Of a DNA stretch of 47,457 nucleotides, positions 12,974 to 46,299 are shown one piece after another; position 1 is the first letter of the stretch; each line of letters opens with the position of its first letter. Position numbers and translations under genes: made by a program. The stretch covers positions 1-47,457 of the IMG/VR virus record IMGVR_UViG_3300037882_003881. One strand, written 5' to 3'. Origin of the DNA: a virus. The notes under the pieces are model-generated. The model did not search any database and was not told where the DNA came from. It saw nothing but the letters and a program-made list of their open reading frames with translations.

Positions 12974-13073
12974 TTTTTTTTAATAATTCACATTGCAAAT
13001 ATCATTAATAGCCTATCAATAAACAAGTGTATTTGTATGCTATTGCATATTATTACATTAACACGTTAAAATA

Positions 13074-13094
13074 GTTCGATTCCCACCCGGGGTA
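13074..13094 (+). other. attP: attP core: 3' end of a tRNA gene
   Basis: GTTCGATTCCCACC followed by CGGGGTA has the T-loop (TTCGATTC), the 3' T-stem and a 7-base acceptor strand ending in a discriminator A. The sequence upstream cannot fold into the rest of a tRNA, so this is only the 3' identity segment that a phage carries to restore a target tRNA after integration. It lies next to the integrase and between phage genes on both sides. The tRNA species cannot be told from this fragment. Confidence 0.7.
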
Positions 13095-23893: not shown

Positions 23894-24724
23894 ATGGATA
23901 TTCAAATTCAAAAAATCGTAACTCATGATGGACAATTTCATGCAGACGAAGTTTTTGCTACGGCAATGTTGTATCGCATTTTTAAAAGAATTGACCTCAC
24001 TCGGACGAGAGATGAGCAATATTTAAAAAAATCATTATCCAACCCTGATGTTATTGTAATAGATGTAGGTGCGGAGTATAATCGTAAAAACAACAACTTT
24101 GACCATCATCAAGATATGTCCTTGAAAAGTGCGGCAGGATTAATCTTTGATGCTTTTGGCAATCGCTTAGGGCTTGACGACTTAGAATTATCTTATTTCG
24201 CCAAATTTATTGATGCTATTGATGCGATTGATACTAACCGCAATAATATCTATGTCTTATGGAATACCTTGCCAGAAGGATTCCGTAATTTTTCAAGTCT
24301 TATTTCGGGATTTAATAGAGATGTATCGGCTAATGAAGTTCAAAGGGAGCAATTCTTTTTTGCGCTTGATTTTGCTTCAATAGTTTTGCAAAATGAAATA
24401 TTTTCAGCAAGACAAAAAGCGGTAAGTGAAAGAGAGTATGCTGACCGAGTTATTTTACCAAATAACGTTGCTGTATTTGAAAAATTTTCAACCGTTTGGA
24501 AGGATAAAAGCGATCACCAATTTGCGGTGATGCCACATCATACCGGTTGGCAAATTTTAACACGAGATAGCTTTGTTGCTGTAATTCCCGAATCTGTTGC
24601 AGAATGCGAAGGTTTTATCTTTCGTCATGGCAGCGGATTCATGGCAACGGTAAAAGAGAGATTAGTTGCGATTGAATTTGCTCAAACCTTACCCGTTATT
24701 GAAATTGTTAAAGCAGATGAATAA
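23894..24724 (+). CDS. MYG1-like DHH-family exonuclease
   Basis: MYG1 (UPF0160) proteins are DHH-superfamily phosphoesterases; the human one is a 3'-5' RNA exonuclease. The signature THDGQFHADEVFATAML is at residues 10-26 and the metal motif DVGAEYNRKNNNFDHHQ near 60-76. A second Asp/His set follows around FIDAIDAIDTN. At 276 aa it is close to single-domain bacterial homologues. I start at ATG 23894, because a longer form using TTG 23858 lies in the leader. It overlaps the next gene by 8 bases, so it is firmly part of the cassette. It could trim or turn over the RNA that the complex carries (inferred). Confidence 0.85.
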   Translation: MDIQIQKIVTHDGQFHADEVFATAMLYRIFKRIDLTRTRDEQYLKKSLSNPDVIVIDVGAEYNRKNNNFDHHQDMSLKSAAGLIFDAFGNRLGLDDLELSYFAKFIDAIDAIDTNRNNIYVLWNTLPEGFRNFSSLISGFNRDVSANEVQREQFFFALDFASIVLQNEIFSARQKAVSEREYADRVILPNNVAVFEKFSTVWKDKSDHQFAVMPHHTGWQILTRDSFVAVIPESVAECEGFIFRHGSGFMATVKERLVAIEFAQTLPVIEIVKADE

Positions 24725-25466
24725 CATCGAAACAGTTTACCATATCGCAACAAACGGCAAGTTGCGGTATGGTGAAACTAAAGGCGTGTGCCGCATCATG
24801 GGCAAAGAAGCCGTTGGAGTGCCGTTTGATAAATGGGTAAAGAAAACATTTACAGATTTTCCTTTTTTACAGGAAGGTGATATTATCTCCAACGAAGCCT
24901 TATTTACCTTTGAGGAAGGTTCTGAAATTATACAACAAAAAGTCGGTAGCGAACGTCCCCAACGTTTCAGAACGTACTCCCACATTATTTCAGGACAAAG
25001 ATGGTACGCCCTTACAAAAGCCGATAAAGAATTGATGTGGGATATTATTACTACGCAAAATCCTCAATGCGTATGTATTGCAGAGAGCGGACAAAAACAC
25101 ATCTTCTTTAAAATCCGAGAGGGCTGGTGGCAATTTGAGGAAAAACAAATACTTCCAAATTTAAAACTTTTGAAACAAATAAATTCAATTATGAATGAAT
25201 TGTATGCAGGAGGTTTTACGCAGGAAGAGATTAAAAGCGGCAAATATCAAGACCAAAGAATTATCAAATTTGGTCTTGCAGAGTGGAAGGCTTTAGATGA
25301 AAGATTAAAACCTTTTAGAAATAGTAACATCTTTGATTTTGCAGCTTTTTTCATGCTTAAAAAAGAAGATGAAGGAATTAAACCAATTATTAAAAATGAT
25401 AATCAACCTCCAATAGTTACCGTTCCCGATAAAAAAGAAGTAGGGCAATTGACATTTGGCTTTTGA
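24717..25466 (+). CDS. csf1: Csf1-like large subunit of a type IV CRISPR effector (putative)
   Basis: The 249-aa protein follows the Csf1 layout: a short N-terminus, a zinc-finger-like region, then a helical region. ETKGVCRIMGKEAVGVPF and KKTFTDFPFLQEGDIIS match the CxxCG, G and TFTD pattern. RPQRFRTYSHII and ALTKADKELM follow as in Csf1. Of the four usual zinc cysteines only the first remains (CRIMG and SNEALF where Cys would be expected), so metal binding is probably lost. The start overlaps the DHH gene. Identification is by remembered family pattern and operon order; a profile search is needed. Confidence 0.6.
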   Translation: MNNIETVYHIATNGKLRYGETKGVCRIMGKEAVGVPFDKWVKKTFTDFPFLQEGDIISNEALFTFEEGSEIIQQKVGSERPQRFRTYSHIISGQRWYALTKADKELMWDIITTQNPQCVCIAESGQKHIFFKIREGWWQFEEKQILPNLKLLKQINSIMNELYAGGFTQEEIKSGKYQDQRIIKFGLAEWKALDERLKPFRNSNIFDFAAFFMLKKEDEGIKPIIKNDNQPPIVTVPDKKEVGQLTFGF

Positions 25467-25484: not shown

Positions 25485-25841
25485 ATGAAAATTACAGACG
25501 AACAAATTGTTTCGGAGTTGCTTTATCCCTGTTGGCAATCAATAGATAGAAGCTACAAAGAACAATACATGAAAACGATTTGGGAGCAGTTCCAAAATCG
25601 TATCAATTCGGCGCTAAAGTGTAACAACTTGAATGAGTTTTATACAAAATTGCAAAGACATTTACCATTGAATATGCACACTTCGGAGATTGAAAAAGTT
25701 GCCAATTTCATCAAGTGCGGAGAGGATAGATTTATTCTTAATAAATTAAGAAAAGAACTCCCAACGCTCGTACTGTTTACTCGATTAAAAAACGAAGAGG
25801 CTAAAGAAATTTACAAAAAAACATTAAAAGACAAAGAATGA
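25485..25841 (+). CDS. Small helical protein in the Cas11 position (putative)
   Basis: The 118-aa sequence is predicted all-helical, with Trp and Tyr near the N-terminus (YPCWQSIDRSYKEQYM) and a basic C-terminus. Type IV-B operons place a small helical Cas11-like subunit between csf1 and csf2, and this gene is exactly there. No sequence motif proves it. It overlaps the csf2 start by four bases, so the two are co-translated. Confidence 0.45.
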   Translation: MKITDEQIVSELLYPCWQSIDRSYKEQYMKTIWEQFQNRINSALKCNNLNEFYTKLQRHLPLNMHTSEIEKVANFIKCGEDRFILNKLRKELPTLVLFTRLKNEEAKEIYKKTLKDKE

Positions 25842-27067
25842 AAACCTATATTTTAGAAATGTTAATCACCGCAACCTCTCCGATTAGCCACAACGGATTT
25901 GAGAGAAACGGCAATATTACAAACGTAAGACGGATTCCTTACGTACAAGCCGACGGTAACGTTGAGGAAGTTCCTGTTATTTCGGGAAACTCTTTACGTG
26001 GCAAAATCCGTGACATGAGCGTTTTAGCGATGTTAGAACGGCTCGGCTATGGTATCAATAAAGAAACAGGCGAAGTAAAAGGATTAAATACTCACGCTTT
26101 CGACTTCCTGTTTTCGGGTGGAAGTTTGGAGAGCGGAGGAGCAAAAGGCTTAGATTTAGATTACTTTAGAGAAATCAAAAATCTAATTCCAATCATGGGT
26201 TTATTAGGAGGTGCGGCAGGAAATTCGGTATTATCAGGAAAACTAAATGTAAACCCGTTAATACCTATTTGTAATGAAACGATTGATGCTATTCGTTCAC
26301 CGCTTAACGAAGCTTTTTTGAATAAGGCAACGCTATACAAAGCGTTTTATCTTCCGTCTAAAACCAATTCAATTGATTTTCCTAATATCGAAACTCAATT
26401 AAAAGAAATGTGGTCAGAACGGATTGAAACAAAAGAACCCCTTGAAATTTCAGTAAATTGGAACGAATCGGGGTGCGAGTTCAATATCACCGCTCCAATT
26501 GAAATGAGTGGTGCAATGGCTTGGGAAGAGTTATATCCTGCATTCGCTAAAGATAAGATGATTGCGGTCAAAAAAAGCCGTAAAATCAATTCGTGCTACG
26601 CATTGACATCGGAGGAAACTTTTAACCGGACGGACGACAAAAAGAATGAGCAAAAACGGGAATTACTAACATCTACTCAAAAAAAACTAGGATTGGTGGA
26701 CGTAGATACCGCCGACACAATCAAAGACGCTCCACAACAAATGATGTACACGCAAGAGGTCATCAATGCAGGAACGGTCTTTTATTGGAAAGTAGTTTTA
26801 AAAGACCCAACCGACATTGAATACGAAGCATTTGTGTTGGCTTTGGGATTATTAAAGCAAAATCCTTACATCGGAGGGCAGCATAGAATTGGTTTTGGTC
26901 AGATTAGAATAGACGAAATGAGCCAAAGAGTACTTAGTTCGGATAGTGCTATTGATGAAATCAGAACCGAAATAGGAGAAACGTTTGGACAAAAATATCT
27001 AAAACACATTGATTTGAATGGCGAAAGAATCATTGAGTTTTTAGAAAAGTTTGGACAAAAAAAATAA
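25838..27067 (+). CDS. csf2: Csf2 (Cas7-family) backbone protein of a type IV CRISPR effector
   Basis: Cas7 proteins polymerise along guide RNA. RAMP hallmarks are present: an N-terminal strand (MKTYILEMLITATSPISHNG), SGNSLRGKIRDM at residues 49-60, a GGSLESGGAKGLD loop, GLLGGAAGNSVLSGKL near 127, and the C-terminal glycine loop GGQHRIGFGQI near 346. SGNSLRG and the hydrophobic Gly-rich centre are characteristic of Csf2 over other Cas7 groups. The 409-aa length is somewhat above most Csf2 proteins. A 12-bp inverted repeat follows 16 bases after the stop. Confidence 0.75.
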   Translation: MKTYILEMLITATSPISHNGFERNGNITNVRRIPYVQADGNVEEVPVISGNSLRGKIRDMSVLAMLERLGYGINKETGEVKGLNTHAFDFLFSGGSLESGGAKGLDLDYFREIKNLIPIMGLLGGAAGNSVLSGKLNVNPLIPICNETIDAIRSPLNEAFLNKATLYKAFYLPSKTNSIDFPNIETQLKEMWSERIETKEPLEISVNWNESGCEFNITAPIEMSGAMAWEELYPAFAKDKMIAVKKSRKINSCYALTSEETFNRTDDKKNEQKRELLTSTQKKLGLVDVDTADTIKDAPQQMMYTQEVINAGTVFYWKVVLKDPTDIEYEAFVLALGLLKQNPYIGGQHRIGFGQIRIDEMSQRVLSSDSAIDEIRTEIGETFGQKYLKHIDLNGERIIEFLEKFGQKK

Positions 27068-27133: not shown

Positions 27134-27343
27134 ATGAGTTTATTCCCTTTTGAAACACAAAATCAAAATAGCAAAGAACATCCTTTTATTGAACCAATTT
27201 TTGTTACAAAACTGGATACAAGAGTGAACTTCTTAATAGAATGTTCTGATGAAAATGAATTGGAAGAGTTAAAGAATTTATTACGAACCAAATCAAAAAA
27301 AATATCTTTTGATAAATTCAAAACGCTATGTCAAAAAGTATAA
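27134..27343 (+). CDS. Small acidic protein, 69 aa
   Basis: This is a short soluble protein with an N-terminal Phe/Pro-rich part (MSLFPFETQNQN) and a helical C-terminus rich in Lys and Leu. It overlaps the glycosyltransferase start by 16 bases. No family is recognised. It may be a partner of the enzymes that follow. Confidence 0.6.
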   Translation: MSLFPFETQNQNSKEHPFIEPIFVTKLDTRVNFLIECSDENELEELKNLLRTKSKKISFDKFKTLCQKV

Positions 27344-28248
27344 TAATTAACTCCGCTAAAATACCAAAAGACGGAGGAATTTCGGCACATACTCGAAATG
27401 CGATTATCATTGCCAATGAATTAGGTTTACCATTAATCTCAACTGCACAAGAAACTAAAGGCTTAAATGCGGCTGATTTTCAAAACTTTGTAATTGTTGG
27501 AAGTGCGTTTTATGAGCAAACCGCACATATTGAAAAATGGATTAGGCAAAATCATTCCGCTAAAATTATATGGATTAATAATGAATATTCCACTACGCCA
27601 AACTCCGAATATTATAGAATGATGAAGGATTTTAAGTCCGTTGTCATTTCAAATGTAGGTCCGGAAAGTACTAAGTGTAAATATTACGATGAGTTTTACT
27701 TATTAGACTTGAATAGTTTAATTTGGAGAAATCCAAATAAAACCATTTTCAAAAAGTACGATTGGATTTATTACGGAACATATCGACCAGGACGTAGATT
27801 ATATTTTCAAAAATACTTCGGGGAAAATATCCACATCAGTAGTTCTGTAAAGAACCTCAAAAGGATTCATCAATTGTCGGGCGTTGATGCGACTTGGATA
27901 AAAGCATTAAATTGGCAAGAAGGAATAGAAACATTAAATCTATTCAAATATTCATTATACATTGAAGATGAATATACGCATACACATTACAATCATTTAG
28001 CGAACCGTTTTTACGAATCCTTAACTTGTAATGTAGTTCAATTCTTTGATGTTAATTGTCAAAACACTTTAGAACAAAGCGGATTAAATCATCAAGATAA
28101 TTATTTCATATCTTCAAAGGAAGAGATTATGTCTATTGCTCAAGCTAAAAATTATGAGCAATTACAAAAAGAACAATACGCATGGAATCAATATGCAGAA
28201 ATGCAGCGAAATAAAGTATTATTTGAACTTCAAAAAATACTTTGCTGA
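27328..28248 (+). CDS. Glycosyltransferase-like protein (GT-B type, phage family)
   Basis: The start KDGGISAHTRNAIIIANELG is typical of GT-B N-terminal domains (GG followed by a helix). WIYYGTYRPGRRLYFQKYF in the middle and EDEYTHTHYNHLANRFYE near residue 212 resemble phage glycosyltransferases that act on DNA bases or surface sugars. The 306-aa length is normal. Such enzymes use nucleotide sugars, and the DNA-modifying kind act on hypermodified bases. It is embedded between csf2 and csf3 and overlaps both neighbours, so a link to the TGT-like gene next to it is likely. The acceptor is unknown. Confidence 0.7.
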   Translation: MSKSIIINSAKIPKDGGISAHTRNAIIIANELGLPLISTAQETKGLNAADFQNFVIVGSAFYEQTAHIEKWIRQNHSAKIIWINNEYSTTPNSEYYRMMKDFKSVVISNVGPESTKCKYYDEFYLLDLNSLIWRNPNKTIFKKYDWIYYGTYRPGRRLYFQKYFGENIHISSSVKNLKRIHQLSGVDATWIKALNWQEGIETLNLFKYSLYIEDEYTHTHYNHLANRFYESLTCNVVQFFDVNCQNTLEQSGLNHQDNYFISSKEEIMSIAQAKNYEQLQKEQYAWNQYAEMQRNKVLFELQKILC

Positions 28249-28979
28249 TGAATAAATACGTATTGCCCGTTCCGTCTTTTTTGAGAGGTCATCTAATTAA
28301 TAAAAATAGATTATATGCCTATCCTACTATTCCTGAAGCTGCAACGGAAAATGAGTTTATCATTTTAGATAGCGGAGCTTTTGGATTAAGCCAAAAAGGG
28401 CAAAAAATGGATTTTGACTATATGAAAAAGTTATCCGCACATTATCAAAAACATAATGCTTCCGATGTTTTTCCGTATATCGGTATTGCTCCCGATGAGT
28501 TTATGAATCCGCTCCAAACAATGGCAAACTTTAAACTTTGGAACGAAAACGAATTGGGAAAAGTCGCACCTGTTTTGCAATTCAAAAAAACAAAACAATT
28601 AGACATTTGGACAATTACAGAACAATGTAAATTTTATTCAAAATACAATCCGCAGTTTGTAGCAATATCCAATCCCGGAATGACGGCTATACAAGCTCAA
28701 AACATCATGCCGCAAATTATAAAAATAGTTCGCAAAATGATAGCTCCAAAATGGATTCATAACCTCGGAGCAGGTTGGAACGCTGCCGATGCTTCGGAAT
28801 GGATAAAACAAGGCTTTGATAGTATAGATAGCATAGCTTACTATACCGATGCCCAAAACAAAAAATCTTGGAGATTTAATAGTCACGAAACATTTTTAAA
28901 CGAATCAGATAGCATCGTAAATATTGCGTTACAAAACCAAGCTATCGCACAACAAAACATTAATTATGCAAAACATTAA
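28248..28979 (+). CDS. TGT/DpdA-like base transglycosylase
   Basis: The TIM-barrel pattern of tRNA-guanine transglycosylases is visible: ILDSGAFGL near residue 44 (substrate-binding Asp), APVLQFKKT near 107, FVAISNPGM near 137, then WIHNLGAGWNAADASEW and KQGFDSIDSIAYYTDA near 165-200. The last matches the TGT segment ending in the nucleophilic Asp. The Cys/His zinc site of bacterial TGT is absent, as in phage DpdA enzymes that insert preQ0-type bases into DNA. At 243 aa it is short. No genes for making the precursor are in the window. ATG 28248 overlaps the preceding stop; it overlaps csf3 by 14 bases. Confidence 0.65.
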   Translation: MNKYVLPVPSFLRGHLINKNRLYAYPTIPEAATENEFIILDSGAFGLSQKGQKMDFDYMKKLSAHYQKHNASDVFPYIGIAPDEFMNPLQTMANFKLWNENELGKVAPVLQFKKTKQLDIWTITEQCKFYSKYNPQFVAISNPGMTAIQAQNIMPQIIKIVRKMIAPKWIHNLGAGWNAADASEWIKQGFDSIDSIAYYTDAQNKKSWRFNSHETFLNESDSIVNIALQNQAIAQQNINYAKH

Positions 28980-29841
28980 AAGAACCAGTCCCGTGTTTCA
29001 AAACTTACGCATTAGAGCGTATTTAGAAACCCCAATCATGTCGGAAGATAAATTCCTTCCTCTTGATGCTATCGTATATGACAAAGCCGTAAGCCTAAAT
29101 TTTGATACACAAAGCAAAGATGTGACATATCCAAACGCATCAACTTACAAGCGTTCAACAGGCTTAGAATTACCATTCAAAAAAGCAAACAGGGGAAATT
29201 TAGACGGCATGACTAAGCATTTAGCAAACTTAAAGGCTTCGCTTGTTGATGCCAAAACGCCTTTAGAACGATATAATATCAATCAAAATATTTTAAAAAC
29301 CGAAAAGTCAATTGAACATCTTAATAAAATTCCAACCGACCAACGAGATGCGTGGTATTACAAATGTTCCTTTGCTCAATTCCCGCACATCAAGACCGAT
29401 TATACAGACTTTTATAATAAGCGTTTTTCAACCGAACACGCTGATTTAATAGATTTAAAAGGATTAAGAGGGAAGATTGAAACACAAAAGGGAAAGTTTA
29501 AAAATTATCATAAAACCTCCTACAACGTTTCAACGCCTTACGTGGATTGGTTTGCCGTTGCGGACAAAAAAGAACTTGAAAATATATTAAGGTTTTGCAC
29601 TCATATCGGTAAAAAGACCTCACAAGGCTTTGGTTCGGTATCAAGATGGGAAGTAATTGAATGGAATTTTGATTGGTCAGAACGTGGACCTGCTCCGTCC
29701 AAAAAAGGTTCAAAACCAAAACTAATGAGAGCCGTTCCTTCAATTAGTTCCAATATCATTTACGGCATTCGCCCGTCATATTGGAATCCACGCCACCAAT
29801 ACAAAGTAATTTTGCCCGAGTTTGAAGTGCTTTATTATTAA
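28966..29841 (+). CDS. csf3: Csf3 (Cas5-family) protein of a type IV CRISPR effector
   Basis: Cas5 proteins cap the 5' handle of the guide RNA. The N-terminal RAMP strand LRIRAYLETPI is followed by FLPLDAIVYDKA, a close match to the Csf3 opening (LPLDA). The glycine loop GKKTSQGFGSVSRWEV is at about residues 217-232. RAVPS near 255 and GIRPSYWNPRHQ near 270 match the characteristic Csf3 C-terminus. A long central insertion (about 60-150) is charged and helical. At 291 aa it is larger than most Csf3. The ATG at 28966 lies inside the TGT-like gene, so the two are coupled. Confidence 0.75.
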   Translation: MQNIKRTSPVFQNLRIRAYLETPIMSEDKFLPLDAIVYDKAVSLNFDTQSKDVTYPNASTYKRSTGLELPFKKANRGNLDGMTKHLANLKASLVDAKTPLERYNINQNILKTEKSIEHLNKIPTDQRDAWYYKCSFAQFPHIKTDYTDFYNKRFSTEHADLIDLKGLRGKIETQKGKFKNYHKTSYNVSTPYVDWFAVADKKELENILRFCTHIGKKTSQGFGSVSRWEVIEWNFDWSERGPAPSKKGSKPKLMRAVPSISSNIIYGIRPSYWNPRHQYKVILPEFEVLYY

Positions 29842-29857
29842 GTTAAAATGTAAAACC

Positions 29858-30307
29858 ATGACAAATAAAACGAGTAGTGAACATTTTGAAACGGTCTTCC
29901 AAAAAGCATTAAAAGAAGTGCTTGAGCGTAACGCATTAAAGAGAGAAAATCTATCAGCCGCAGATTTTTATAGTTTCCTAATTGAAAAATCCGCTCCAAT
30001 CGTGCTTTGCGACTTCGTAAAAGATAATAAGTATGATTTAAGCACATTTATAAAAAGATGCGGAGATGTAACTTGGATTGAAACGGTTTTGAAATTATTG
30101 AATGTAACAGATACTACAATTAATCAATTTCGGAGTGATTACAATCAAGCAATGAATATCTTGAAAGAAGACCTAATGAGTTTTAAGATATTAGTCAATA
30201 AATCGGGCGTACATGAATTAAGTTATTGCGAGTATCTTGCAATAAAAATGATGCGAAAACAAGCCCTAAAGGAAGTTATCCCGAATTATATCCAAATTAT
30301 TGATTAA
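29858..30307 (+). CDS. Helical protein ending the type IV-like operon, 149 aa
   Basis: I start at ATG 29858, because the upstream in-frame extension overlaps csf3. The product is almost wholly helical, with Cys at 50, 68 and 126 and hydrophobic faces that would suit an oligomeric accessory. No family is recognised. It is the last gene of the cassette, ten bases before a strong promoter. It could be a second small subunit or a regulator, but nothing in the sequence decides this. Confidence 0.65.
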   Translation: MTNKTSSEHFETVFQKALKEVLERNALKRENLSAADFYSFLIEKSAPIVLCDFVKDNKYDLSTFIKRCGDVTWIETVLKLLNVTDTTINQFRSDYNQAMNILKEDLMSFKILVNKSGVHELSYCEYLAIKMMRKQALKEVIPNYIQIID

Positions 30308-30316
30308 AAAAATAAT

Positions 30317-30347
30317 TTTGAAATCAAAAAAATCTAACTTACATTTG
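30317..30347 (+). promoter_or_regulatory. Consensus Bacteroidota promoter for a noncoding RNA
   Basis: TTTG at 30317-30320 and TACATTTG at 30340-30347 are separated by 19 nt, an exact fit to TTTG-N19-21-TAnnTTTG. The predicted start (30353-30355) coincides with the beginning of the closing stem of the RNA at 30356. This is the best promoter match in the window. Confidence 0.85.
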
Positions 30348-30353
30348 TAGCTC

Positions 30354-30569
30354 AAAGATACGTTGGGGACAATGGAATTGAAACAGAAAAAAATTGTACT
30401 TGATGGAGTAGGAAACTCGAAACATTTTTAAGGGTACGTTTTACTTAATCGAACCAGTCCCCAACTATCTAAAAAAGATGGTTTTTGTCTTCCATGTTTT
30501 TCAGATGTCGTCTTTATTTAAAAGTTAGAAAATATAAAGCCGCTTCAAATTGTTGAAGCGGCTTTTTTT
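30354..30569 (+). ncRNA. Structured noncoding RNA beside the type IV-like operon
   Basis: The RNA begins at the consensus promoter and ends at an intrinsic terminator. Its first 117 nt are closed by a 14-bp helix: AGATA (30356-30360) and GTTGGGGAC (30362-30370) pair with GTCCCCAAC (30457-30465) and TATCT (30466-30470), with one bulged C. The interior (30371-30456) is A-rich and mostly unpaired, with a small GAGT/ACTC hairpin. A 19-codon ORF (ATG 30372 to TAA 30431) lies inside but looks incidental. It could be the RNA carried by the Csf complex. A 6S-like RNA, which also has paired ends and an open centre, is the main alternative. Confidence 0.7.
30537..30569 (+). terminator. Intrinsic terminator of the noncoding RNA
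   Basis: AAGCCGCTTCAA (30537-30548) pairs with TTGAAGCGGCTT (30553-30564), loop ATTG, followed by a run of seven Ts (30563-30569). The tRNA begins only two bases after the T-run. Confidence 0.85.
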
Positions 30570-30571
30570 AT

Positions 30572-30645
30572 GCAGATGTGGCGAAATTGGCAGACGCGCA
30601 AGATTTAGGCTCTTGATTTTGAAGGTTCAAATCCTTTCATCTGTA
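30572..30645 (+). tRNA. tRNA-Leu(UAG) without a long variable arm
   Basis: The 74-nt gene folds fully. Acceptor GCAGATG pairs with CATCTGT and the discriminator is A. The D-arm GCG/CGC has the Leu-like loop AAATTGGCAGA. The anticodon stem is CAAGA/TCTTG with loop TTTAGGC (anticodon TAG at 30606-30608), and the T-arm GAAGG/CCTTT has loop TTCAAAT. The variable loop has only five bases (ATTTT), whereas leucine tRNAs normally have a long arm. The 3' CCA is not encoded. It reads CUA/CUN codons. Confidence 0.85.
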
Positions 30646-30663
30646 TGAATTTAAACATTTATT

Positions 30664-30703
30664 TAAGCCGTTCTATCCTCCAATTATGGGAACGGCTTTT
30701 TTT
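30664..30703. terminator. Terminator after the tRNA, shared with convergent gene
   Basis: AAGCCGTTC (30665-30673) pairs with GAACGGCTT (30690-30698), followed by a T-run to 30703. It ends the tRNA transcript and overlaps the stop codon of the leftward gene at 30673. Confidence 0.75.
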
Positions 30704-31254
30704 ATTAGGTGCGTTATATCTACCAAAAACAACGGAATGGGCTTAAACGCAACTATTTTATTATCGTCTTTTAAATTTTTTCCATAAATGAAATTTGTTA
30801 AAACATCAGATAAAATAGGGTTGGGATATGCAAATACTTTATTGTTATTTTTATTTGGCAAAAAATCCGCATCAAGTAGTAGTTTTACGTAAAACTCGTT
30901 AATATGAAGAGTATCTATATACGCTAAAGAGGTTCCATTTAATAAAACTAAACCAGCTAAACCGGGAGCCGATTTTTCTAATATTAATGTTATTAAATGA
31001 CCATCTATTTCTTTTGTTAATGAAAAAATCCCTCCTGCAAGTAATTGTTTAGCCGTTAATTCATTAATATTTAAAGAAAACCGTTTTATAATTTCAGATA
31101 GGATTATGTCCGTATCTTCTAACATCGGAGGGATAGACATTTTAAAACTATTCGCACCACTTGCACATAGTTTTTTTAGTTCTTTTTTTGCCATTTCAAC
31201 CAGTTCAATGTCGGGAATAGCCGATAATTTTTCAATAAATTCTTCGTGTTTCAT
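30673..31254 (-). CDS. Hypothetical leftward protein, 193 aa
   Basis: The N-terminal 60 residues form charged helices (KHEEFIEKLSAIPDIELVEM). The rest is hydrophobic but without a clear membrane helix. One segment (LLAGGIFSLTKEIDGHLITLILEKSAPGL is its span, residues about 70-98) looks like a helical bundle core. No family is recognised. It lies on the strand opposite to the structural genes and is the last of a leftward series, which suggests a lysogenic accessory gene. A hairpin sits in its leader (31271-31300). Confidence 0.65.
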   Translation of the reverse strand: MKHEEFIEKLSAIPDIELVEMAKKELKKLCASGANSFKMSIPPMLEDTDIILSEIIKRFSLNINELTAKQLLAGGIFSLTKEIDGHLITLILEKSAPGLAGLVLLNGTSLAYIDTLHINEFYVKLLLDADFLPNKNNNKVFAYPNPILSDVLTNFIYGKNLKDDNKIVAFKPIPLFLVDITHLIKKAVPIIGG

Positions 31255-31821: not shown

Positions 31822-32026
31822 AGCTTATTTCTTTTTCATATTTGAATAAAGCAACGTAAGCTAATGCCGTGCGTTGAGCCGATTGGATTTCAACGGTAGT
31901 ATGAGGGTGAGGCACGTTTTTCATAATTTCGTGTACCTCATCTTCAAATCTTATATCAAGTTCGTCTGTCGTGATAATTGTACGAATAGCCTTTTTCAAA
32001 TCCGTTTTGATTAATTCTAAAATCAT
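31799..32026 (-). CDS. Small helical protein, 75 aa, first gene of a leftward operon
   Basis: This helical protein is paralogous to the 70-aa product that follows (shared TTDEL, AQ and AL positions). It has an extra His/Pro-rich loop (VPHPHTT) near residue 38. The leader carries CTAACTTTT 14 bases before the ATG and a conserved stem, and the promoter overlaps a 25-bp palindrome. Expression is thus probably repressed by the protein that binds this palindrome. Function unknown; moron-type lysogenic gene suspected. Confidence 0.7.
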   Translation of the reverse strand: MILELIKTDLKKAIRTIITTDELDIRFEDEVHEIMKNVPHPHTTVEIQSAQRTALAYVALFKYEKEISYEHQTID

Positions 32027-32058
32027 GTTTTTTATAATTTAAAAGTTAGATAAATTGC

Positions 32059-32119
32059 CAAACCCTTAAACCGTTTGACCCTACAAAGATAGTTATTAAT
32101 TTCATATTATGAAATTAAT
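32059..32119 (-). promoter_or_regulatory. Operator-promoter-leader unit, copy 1
   Basis: The palindrome at 32095-32119 (arms ATTAATTTCATA and TATGAAATTAAT around a central T) is perfect. The minus-strand -7 box TATCTTTG is at 32091-32084, and TTTC in the palindrome takes the -33 position 19 nt away, so a bound repressor would cover the promoter. A leader stem CAAAC/GTTTG (32059-32077) follows. The same arrangement recurs at 37050-37085 and 46238-46271. Confidence 0.8.
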
Positions 32120-32207
32120 AGTAAAAATAATTTACGTTTTTTATAAAAAATTATTTCCAAATCCAATTATTGAAAAAATCAAAAGTGCAATTGATTTAAA
32201 ATTATTG

Positions 32208-36981: not shown

Positions 36982-37021
36982 TGTATTATGATTTTAAAAA
37001 AAAGTTAGATAATTAATTAAT

Positions 37022-37085
37022 TGCCAAACCCTTAATCCGTTTGACCTCACAAAGATAATTATTAATTTCATATTATGAAATTAAT
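37022..37085 (-). promoter_or_regulatory. Operator-promoter-leader unit, copy 2
   Basis: The 25-bp palindrome at 37061-37085 is identical to that at 32095-32119. The minus-strand -7 box TATCTTTG is at 37057-37050, at the same distance (16 bp from the palindrome centre), and the leader stem CAAAC/GTTTG is conserved. The first 40 nt of the leader are almost the same as in copy 1. Confidence 0.8.
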
Positions 37086-37125
37086 TTAATAAAAAAATCA
37101 CTTTTTTTTATCAAATAATCACAAT

Positions 37126-45655: not shown

Positions 45656-46180
45656 TTATAAATAAGTAACAAAATTGCCATGGCAGCCATTAGGATTTTC
45701 ATGTGTATCATACCATTTATTTGTTAAAACAAAATTAATATCCCCGAATGGAGATTTGTGTTTAATTGTAATCCAATATTTATTTTTAACACTATCGTTA
45801 GTGATAAAGGTTGAAAAAAAATAAACACCTTTATCTGTTTGACCAATTTCGCCATATTTAGGAAGTAATTCATCAATCAGGTATTTTTTAAATTTATCTT
45901 TTTCATTGATTTCATTAGAACAATTAAAAATAATTTTAGCATACTCGCTAAAATTATTCATAGTAGCGGTTTTGCCGCTTACATAGATAAAAGAAGCACC
46001 ATACCCTCCAATTGTTGGGCTTCCTCCAAACTTTATAGAAACGCCTGACGAAAAGGCTTCTATCTCTCCATTTAATCCGTTTTTTAATTGGTATATATTC
46101 ACAGATTTTTCACCCGCGCCGCCCCAACTTCCGCCTTGACTAATATAAGTTGTCTTACTTTTTACTACAATAGCATTCAT
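45656..46180 (-). CDS. Hypothetical leftward protein, 174 aa, under operator copy 3
   Basis: The protein is rich in Gly, Ser and Tyr. The N-terminus reads TYISQGGSWGGAGEKSVNIY and later IKFGGSPTIGGYGASFIYVS, suggesting a beta-sandwich surface protein; no signal peptide is evident. The C-terminal half is alpha/beta (YWITIKHKSPFGDINFVLT). No family is recognised. Its promoter carries the third copy of the palindromic operator, so it is likely expressed together with the 32-kb and 37-kb units, probably in lysogeny. Confidence 0.65.
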   Translation of the reverse strand: MNAIVVKSKTTYISQGGSWGGAGEKSVNIYQLKNGLNGEIEAFSSGVSIKFGGSPTIGGYGASFIYVSGKTATMNNFSEYAKIIFNCSNEINEKDKFKKYLIDELLPKYGEIGQTDKGVYFFSTFITNDSVKNKYWITIKHKSPFGDINFVLTNKWYDTHENPNGCHGNFVTYL

Positions 46181-46206
46181 GTCTTATTTTTTTAAATGTT
46201 AGAATA

Positions 46207-46271
46207 AAAAATCAAACCGTTATCCCGTTTGACCTCACAAATATACAAAATAATTTCATATTGTGAAATTA
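46207..46271 (-). promoter_or_regulatory. Operator-promoter-leader unit, copy 3
   Basis: The palindrome TAATTTCA (46251-46258), 5-nt centre, TGAAATTA (46264-46271) is a slightly diverged copy of the 25-bp operator. The minus-strand -7 box TATATTTG is at 46245-46238, again 16 bp from the palindrome centre. The leader stem TCAAAC/GTTTGA is kept. Confidence 0.75.
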
Positions 46272-46299
46272 GTATTAAAAATAATTTACTTTTTTTATA

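Follow-up and report, generated by a model that had tools for sequence, protein, structure and literature searches.

The 47,457-nt stretch of DNA analysed here, referred to throughout as the window, comprises positions 1 to 47,457 of the IMG/VR record IMGVR_UViG_3300037882_003881. The record is of the Bacteroidota phage type, and its genes include those for a tyrosine integrase, a terminase, a portal protein and a tape measure protein. No close phage relatives were found by portal and terminase, the top terminase identity being 46%. A csf operon occupies part of its plus strand, and PADLOC recognized csf1, cas11, csf2 and csf3 in it (Table 1), while no CRISPR array is present in the window. 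The array-less type IV-like operon described in an earlier note on this DNA is thereby confirmed, and from this predicted gene content without an array the operon can be classed as type IV-B-like. It is headed by a gene for a MYG1-type (UPF0160) putative exonuclease (23894-24724), just 5' of csf1. The last operon gene, a 149-codon ORF, has no Pfam or PHROG match and a weak PADLOC match to CARF_HEPN (0.0015). Directly behind it lies the unit that is the main subject of this analysis, consisting of a predicted promoter, a structured RNA and a terminator, and followed in turn by a tRNA gene.

Table 1. Predicted features of the csf operon, the RNA unit and its downstream flank (coordinates in the window)
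Feature	Coordinates	Strand	Evidence or remark
csf1 (type IV Cas8-like)	24714..25466	+	PADLOC 5.7e-14
cas11	25485..25841	+	PADLOC 1.2e-16
csf2 (Cas7)	25838..27067	+	PADLOC 2.1e-65
TGT-like protein	28248..28979	+	phrog_887, E=0.0068; occupies the operon place of relatives' cysH
csf3 (Cas5)	28963..29841	+	PADLOC 6.2e-35
149-codon ORF	29858..30307	+	last operon gene, between csf3 and RNA unit
sigma-ABfr type promoter, Bacteroidota	30317..30347	+	TTTG-N19-TACATTTG; exact consensus match, predicted
Primary small RNA, predicted, about 215 nt	30354..30570	+	start from promoter spacing, end at terminator
Closing helix, 5' arm	30356..30370	+	14 bp, C30361 bulged
19-codon ATG ORF	30372..30431	+	MELKQKKIVLDGVGNSKHF; start codon adjoins and is partly within closing stem
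RNA interior	30376..30453	+	A/U-rich, ~78 nt, mostly weakly paired; best pairs about 0.6, no dominant fold
Closing helix, 3' arm	30457..30470	+	
Second hairpin, rival of outer 5 bp	30467..30506	+	pair probabilities 0.64-0.76, full transcript
Intrinsic terminator	30536..30565	+	13 bp then T7
tRNA-Leu(UAG), 76 nt	30571..30646	+	begins about 5 nt past terminator
Second terminator-like hairpin, after tRNA	30665..30704	+	9 bp, 16-nt loop, T-run; read from sequence

The operon departs in several respects from its relatives, which often carry a PAPS reductase gene (cysH) between csf2 and csf3. The cysH expected of a type IV-B operon is absent from that of the window, and its position is held by three genes, namely that of the protein with the weak TGT match, an ORF of 69 codons and a gene for a 306-aa protein of no assigned family. 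The same three accessory genes occur in a different order on a contig of a Massilibacteroides MAG (L029), and in another locus (L065) csf3 is followed by a gene whose product is related to the TGT-like protein; the variant regions span 27134-28979 in the window, L029:9253-11055 and L065:7419-8099. Structure models of the accessory proteins encoded at 27328-28248 and 28248-28979 had low confidence and allowed neither protein to be assigned firmly, the partial, low-confidence model of the TGT-like protein resembling a TIM barrel. Csf2 is longer than its relatives, with an insertion placed by alignment within about residues 155-250. A TGT-like gene at the cysH position may represent a distinct operon variant, and as such may be of more interest than the RNA itself.

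Transcription of the RNA unit is predicted to start from a promoter of the Bacteroides sigma-ABfr type, whose consensus consists of TAnnTTTG at -7 and TTTG near -33 (PMC7366714). The exact promoter of the earlier note is confirmed as an exact match to TTTG-N19-TAnnTTTG; such matches number four on the two strands of the window against a chance expectation of 2.75, and by itself the motif therefore says little. The match considered here is intergenic, on the correct strand and at the correct distance, and its spacing puts the predicted start at about 30354, two bases 5' of the closing helix, in agreement with the claim that the start coincides with the beginning of that helix. A TAnnTTTG motif (TATCTTTG) is also found on the minus strand at 30353-30360, just where the RNA gene has its 5' end, and there it could possibly mark an antisense start, no -33 partner being seen. 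Elsewhere in the window, an intergenic element of 110-129 bp is present in three copies (32014-32142, 37000-37108 and 46177-46296; 79-83% identity), each of which has on the minus strand a TAnnTTTG beside a palindrome (ATTAATTTCATAATATGAAATTAAT or near) and a small leader hairpin, and points at leftward genes; they look like the sites of one regulator controlling three leftward phage operons.

The RNA is closed by a helix in which 30356-30360 pair with 30466-30470 and 30362-30370 with 30457-30465, all 14 bp being Watson-Crick, and which is lengthened by UGG/CCA (30373-30375 with 30454-30456). It is the only helix of its class in the window (14-bp Watson-Crick, no more than one bulge, 6 or more G/C, loop of 50-140 nt), and shuffled sequences yield 0.017 per window. 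When G-U pairs are permitted, the shuffled expectation rises to 1.3, and it is therefore the Watson-Crick purity that carries the significance of the helix. The fold as a whole is likewise stable, with MFE z-scores of -4.1 (126 nt) and -4.6 (220 nt) and an energy of -60.7 kcal/mol across 220 nt, although after correction for G+C the RNA ranks 29th among 2370 stretches of the window, several others folding equally well or better. The helix proposed in the earlier note is thus upheld, with a correction regarding its base: once the whole transcript is folded, its outer 5 bp are in competition at about 60:40, positions 30467-30470 favouring the second hairpin and 30355-30359 pairing with 30510-30514, each at about 0.6, whereas the inner 9 bp and UGG/CCA are stable in all versions. 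Apart from the terminators, no pair of direct repeats was found in 30250-30720. A hammerhead-like reading of GAUGGAGU..ACUCGAAA was considered by eye and rejected, the core positions and the cleavage site being a misfit.

The open A-rich interior had led the earlier note to a likeness with 6S-type RNAs and to the Rfam 6S-Flavo and Bacteroidales-1 models. A closing stem and a partly open interior are indeed common to the phage RNA and 6S RNA (Rfam 6S families, 6S-Flavo), and an RNA by which the phage imitated 6S and bound the RNA polymerase of its host would have this general shape. The phage RNA nevertheless matches no 6S covariance model. At the gathering threshold Rfam reported no family except tRNA, and a permissive search of a 521-bp stretch (E <= 5) returned mostly matches that include the terminator, with neither 6S nor Bacteroidales-1 among them, so that the resemblance drew no model match even at this level. 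A 6S RNA would be expected to have a large central bubble between two stable stems; here the outer stem is stable, the interior pairs reach only about 0.6, and no bubble of this kind is defined. With the Rfam search covering this short stretch, we regard a 6S mimic as highly improbable.

The unit was also said to contain no convincing ORF, which is not quite so. The 19-codon ORF resembles a gene in its codon usage, scoring 0.34 per codon against 0.31 for coding and 0.02 for non-coding (wrong) frames; among non-coding frames such a score would stand at about the 95th percentile. Its ATG (30372-30374) adjoins the helix arm GGGGAC and pairs partly with CCA (30454-30456), and one could accordingly imagine a short, self-locked mRNA for a 19-aa peptide with its start codon blocked by the long-range helix. 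ORFs of 19 codons are, however, frequent by chance at 36% G+C, and the peptide has no convincing match among the fetched loci. Fusion by a +1 shift with the next open frame was rejected too, no homolog of the product being found and that next frame not being coding-like. On balance a self-locked mRNA seems very unlikely.

The strong terminator reported at the end of the unit is present as described, and is the only strong plus-strand terminator between the start of the csf operon and this point (23.7-30.5 kb); for that reason it probably also ends the csf mRNA. Shortly past its T-run begins the tRNA-Leu, for which no TAnnTTTG promoter of its own was found upstream on the plus strand, and another terminator-like hairpin comes after the tRNA. 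These observations would suit a reading in which the promoter belongs to the tRNA-Leu and the structured stretch is a long leader trimmed away by RNase P. Such a leader, however, would need neither the 14-bp helix nor a terminator, and the 13-bp terminator stands between it and the tRNA, which makes this reading unlikely. The tRNA-Leu(UAG) is itself of note, as its 76 nt lack the long variable arm usual in tRNA-Leu.

If the RNA were a fixed component of the Csf system, counterparts might be sought beside related operons. Alignment-guided scans provided more than 60 csf loci, of which 45 with csf3 were surveyed, and in none of these 45 was a comparable closed-helix non-coding element present after csf3. 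Two helices encountered in the survey lie within an ORF (L021) and 560 nt from csf3 (L051); a small ORF immediately follows csf3 both in L029, with the same accessory genes, and in the locus with the closest Csf1 (L040), and a plain terminator hairpin follows it in two others (L056 and L023). One viral operon, csf1-cas11-csf2-cysH-cas6-csf3 (L025:8996-13110), includes a Cas6 gene and is directly followed by a 73-nt three-way-junction-like element (about 13013-13085), which shares only GTTGG/CCAAC with the phage RNA and was not accepted as a counterpart.

The earlier note had looked to covariation of the helix in relatives for support. The covariance model used found no match in the csf loci or in eleven of their whole records, none in the 80 nearest terminase-bearing contigs, and no accepted match in two draws of Bacteroidota genomes (395 and 396, overlapping in part, with about 730 distinct genomes between them), and thus no homolog in which covariation might be read. 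These negatives are limited by a model built from a single sequence and by the distance of the csf relatives (best Csf2 segments 27-59% identical). Two matches (L074 and L158) lie inside coding sequence or extend across it, and their helix is broken or deleted; both were attributed to chance. In IMG/VR, the exact helix-arm pattern gave four matches, all unrelated inverted repeats, and the exact 18-nt core pattern gave zero. Together, these comparisons show that the RNA, as predicted here, has not been widely retained next to csf operons, with which a phage-specific role would be compatible.

This outcome bears directly on the proposal that the RNA is the prime candidate among those that the Csf complex might bind, of which the position next to the operon stands, whereas adjacency is all that nominates it and the 45 csf loci offer no counterpart. 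As a dedicated guide or assembly RNA, it would have its closed end read by Csf3 and its interior coated by a Csf2-Cas11 filament. Its place directly after an array-less operon and its interior of about 78 nt, mostly weakly paired, speak for such a role, as does the binding of RNA of about 55-60 nt by a type IV-B complex (PMC7937560). Against it, neither the related loci nor the covariance model show anything comparable, the ORF after csf3 in L029 and L040 leaves no room for such an RNA, there are no repeats that would make the RNA crRNA-like, and no evident preference for sequence was seen in the RNA bound by the known complex (PMC7937560). We therefore hold a dedicated guide to be decidedly unlikely. 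A more specific proposal is more doubtful still: in a rare branch of these operons in which cysH has given way to the TGT-like gene, the RNA would serve as a dedicated guide or scaffold of non-CRISPR origin, with the help of which the complex would direct a nucleic-acid modification. Both Csf binding and a 6S-like action of the RNA are at present possible but unsupported. The absence of the RNA from all csf relatives examined argues against nominating guide RNAs by adjacency alone.

The reading that we prefer, with a probability of about 0.5 for the explanation as a whole, is that of a small-RNA gene of the phage, nested within the 3' UTR of the csf operon. In sequence terms there is good support, from the predicted promoter, helix and terminator, for a structured RNA gene that stands alone, and its nesting in the 3' UTR is suggested because the operon has no strong plus-strand terminator before 30536. 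The promoter would give rise to a separate RNA of about 215 nt, which may be trimmed to a closed core of 115 nt, and the same terminator would end the csf operon mRNA, making the RNA the 3' end of that mRNA as well. The helix may protect and present the A/U-rich interior, which could act in trans by base pairing with phage or host transcripts, and some read-through of the terminator would supply the downstream tRNA-Leu. Complementarity of the RNA to the phage's own genome is limited to few short matches, as expected, the longest being 13 nt and AT-rich, with no clear target among them. The RNA is thus probably a local feature of this phage and no fixed component of the Csf system, and may at present be described as a well-formed but orphan phage sRNA gene.

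Among known systems, the type IV-B Csf ribonucleoprotein (PMC7937560) shares with the window csf1, cas11, csf2 and csf3 and the lack of an array, whereas the RNAs bound there, in the single type IV-B complex studied, were heterogeneous and about 55-60 nt long, and the operon of the window is without cysH. If bound by the Csf proteins of the phage, the RNA would be their dedicated partner and would give direct access to the question of which RNA type IV-B complexes carry in nature. The type IV-B locus of Fuxivirus (PMC10848311) is likewise a virus-borne operon with a candidate RNA alongside, yet it has cysH and a two-repeat CRISPR mini-array, while the operon of the window has no cysH and the phage RNA no direct repeats. 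The closest likeness to the preferred reading of a 3'-UTR-nested small RNA is offered by the 3'-UTR-derived sRNAs of Bacteroides, whose definition asks for a TSS of their own or a processing site in a gene's 3' region and for the same terminator as the parental mRNA (PMC7366714). Compared with those of Bacteroides thetaiotaomicron, the present RNA is phage-borne, has a long closing helix and no sequence homolog, and is known from sequence alone. In common with them (PMC7366714) it has a sigma-ABfr promoter, predicted here from the consensus, in a gene's 3' region, a terminator probably in common with the parental mRNA, a predicted length of about 215 nt within the range of 30-500 nt, and a fold energy well under -0.05 kcal/mol per nt, and the unit thus agrees at the level of sequence with what has been published as the definition of 3'-UTR-derived sRNAs.
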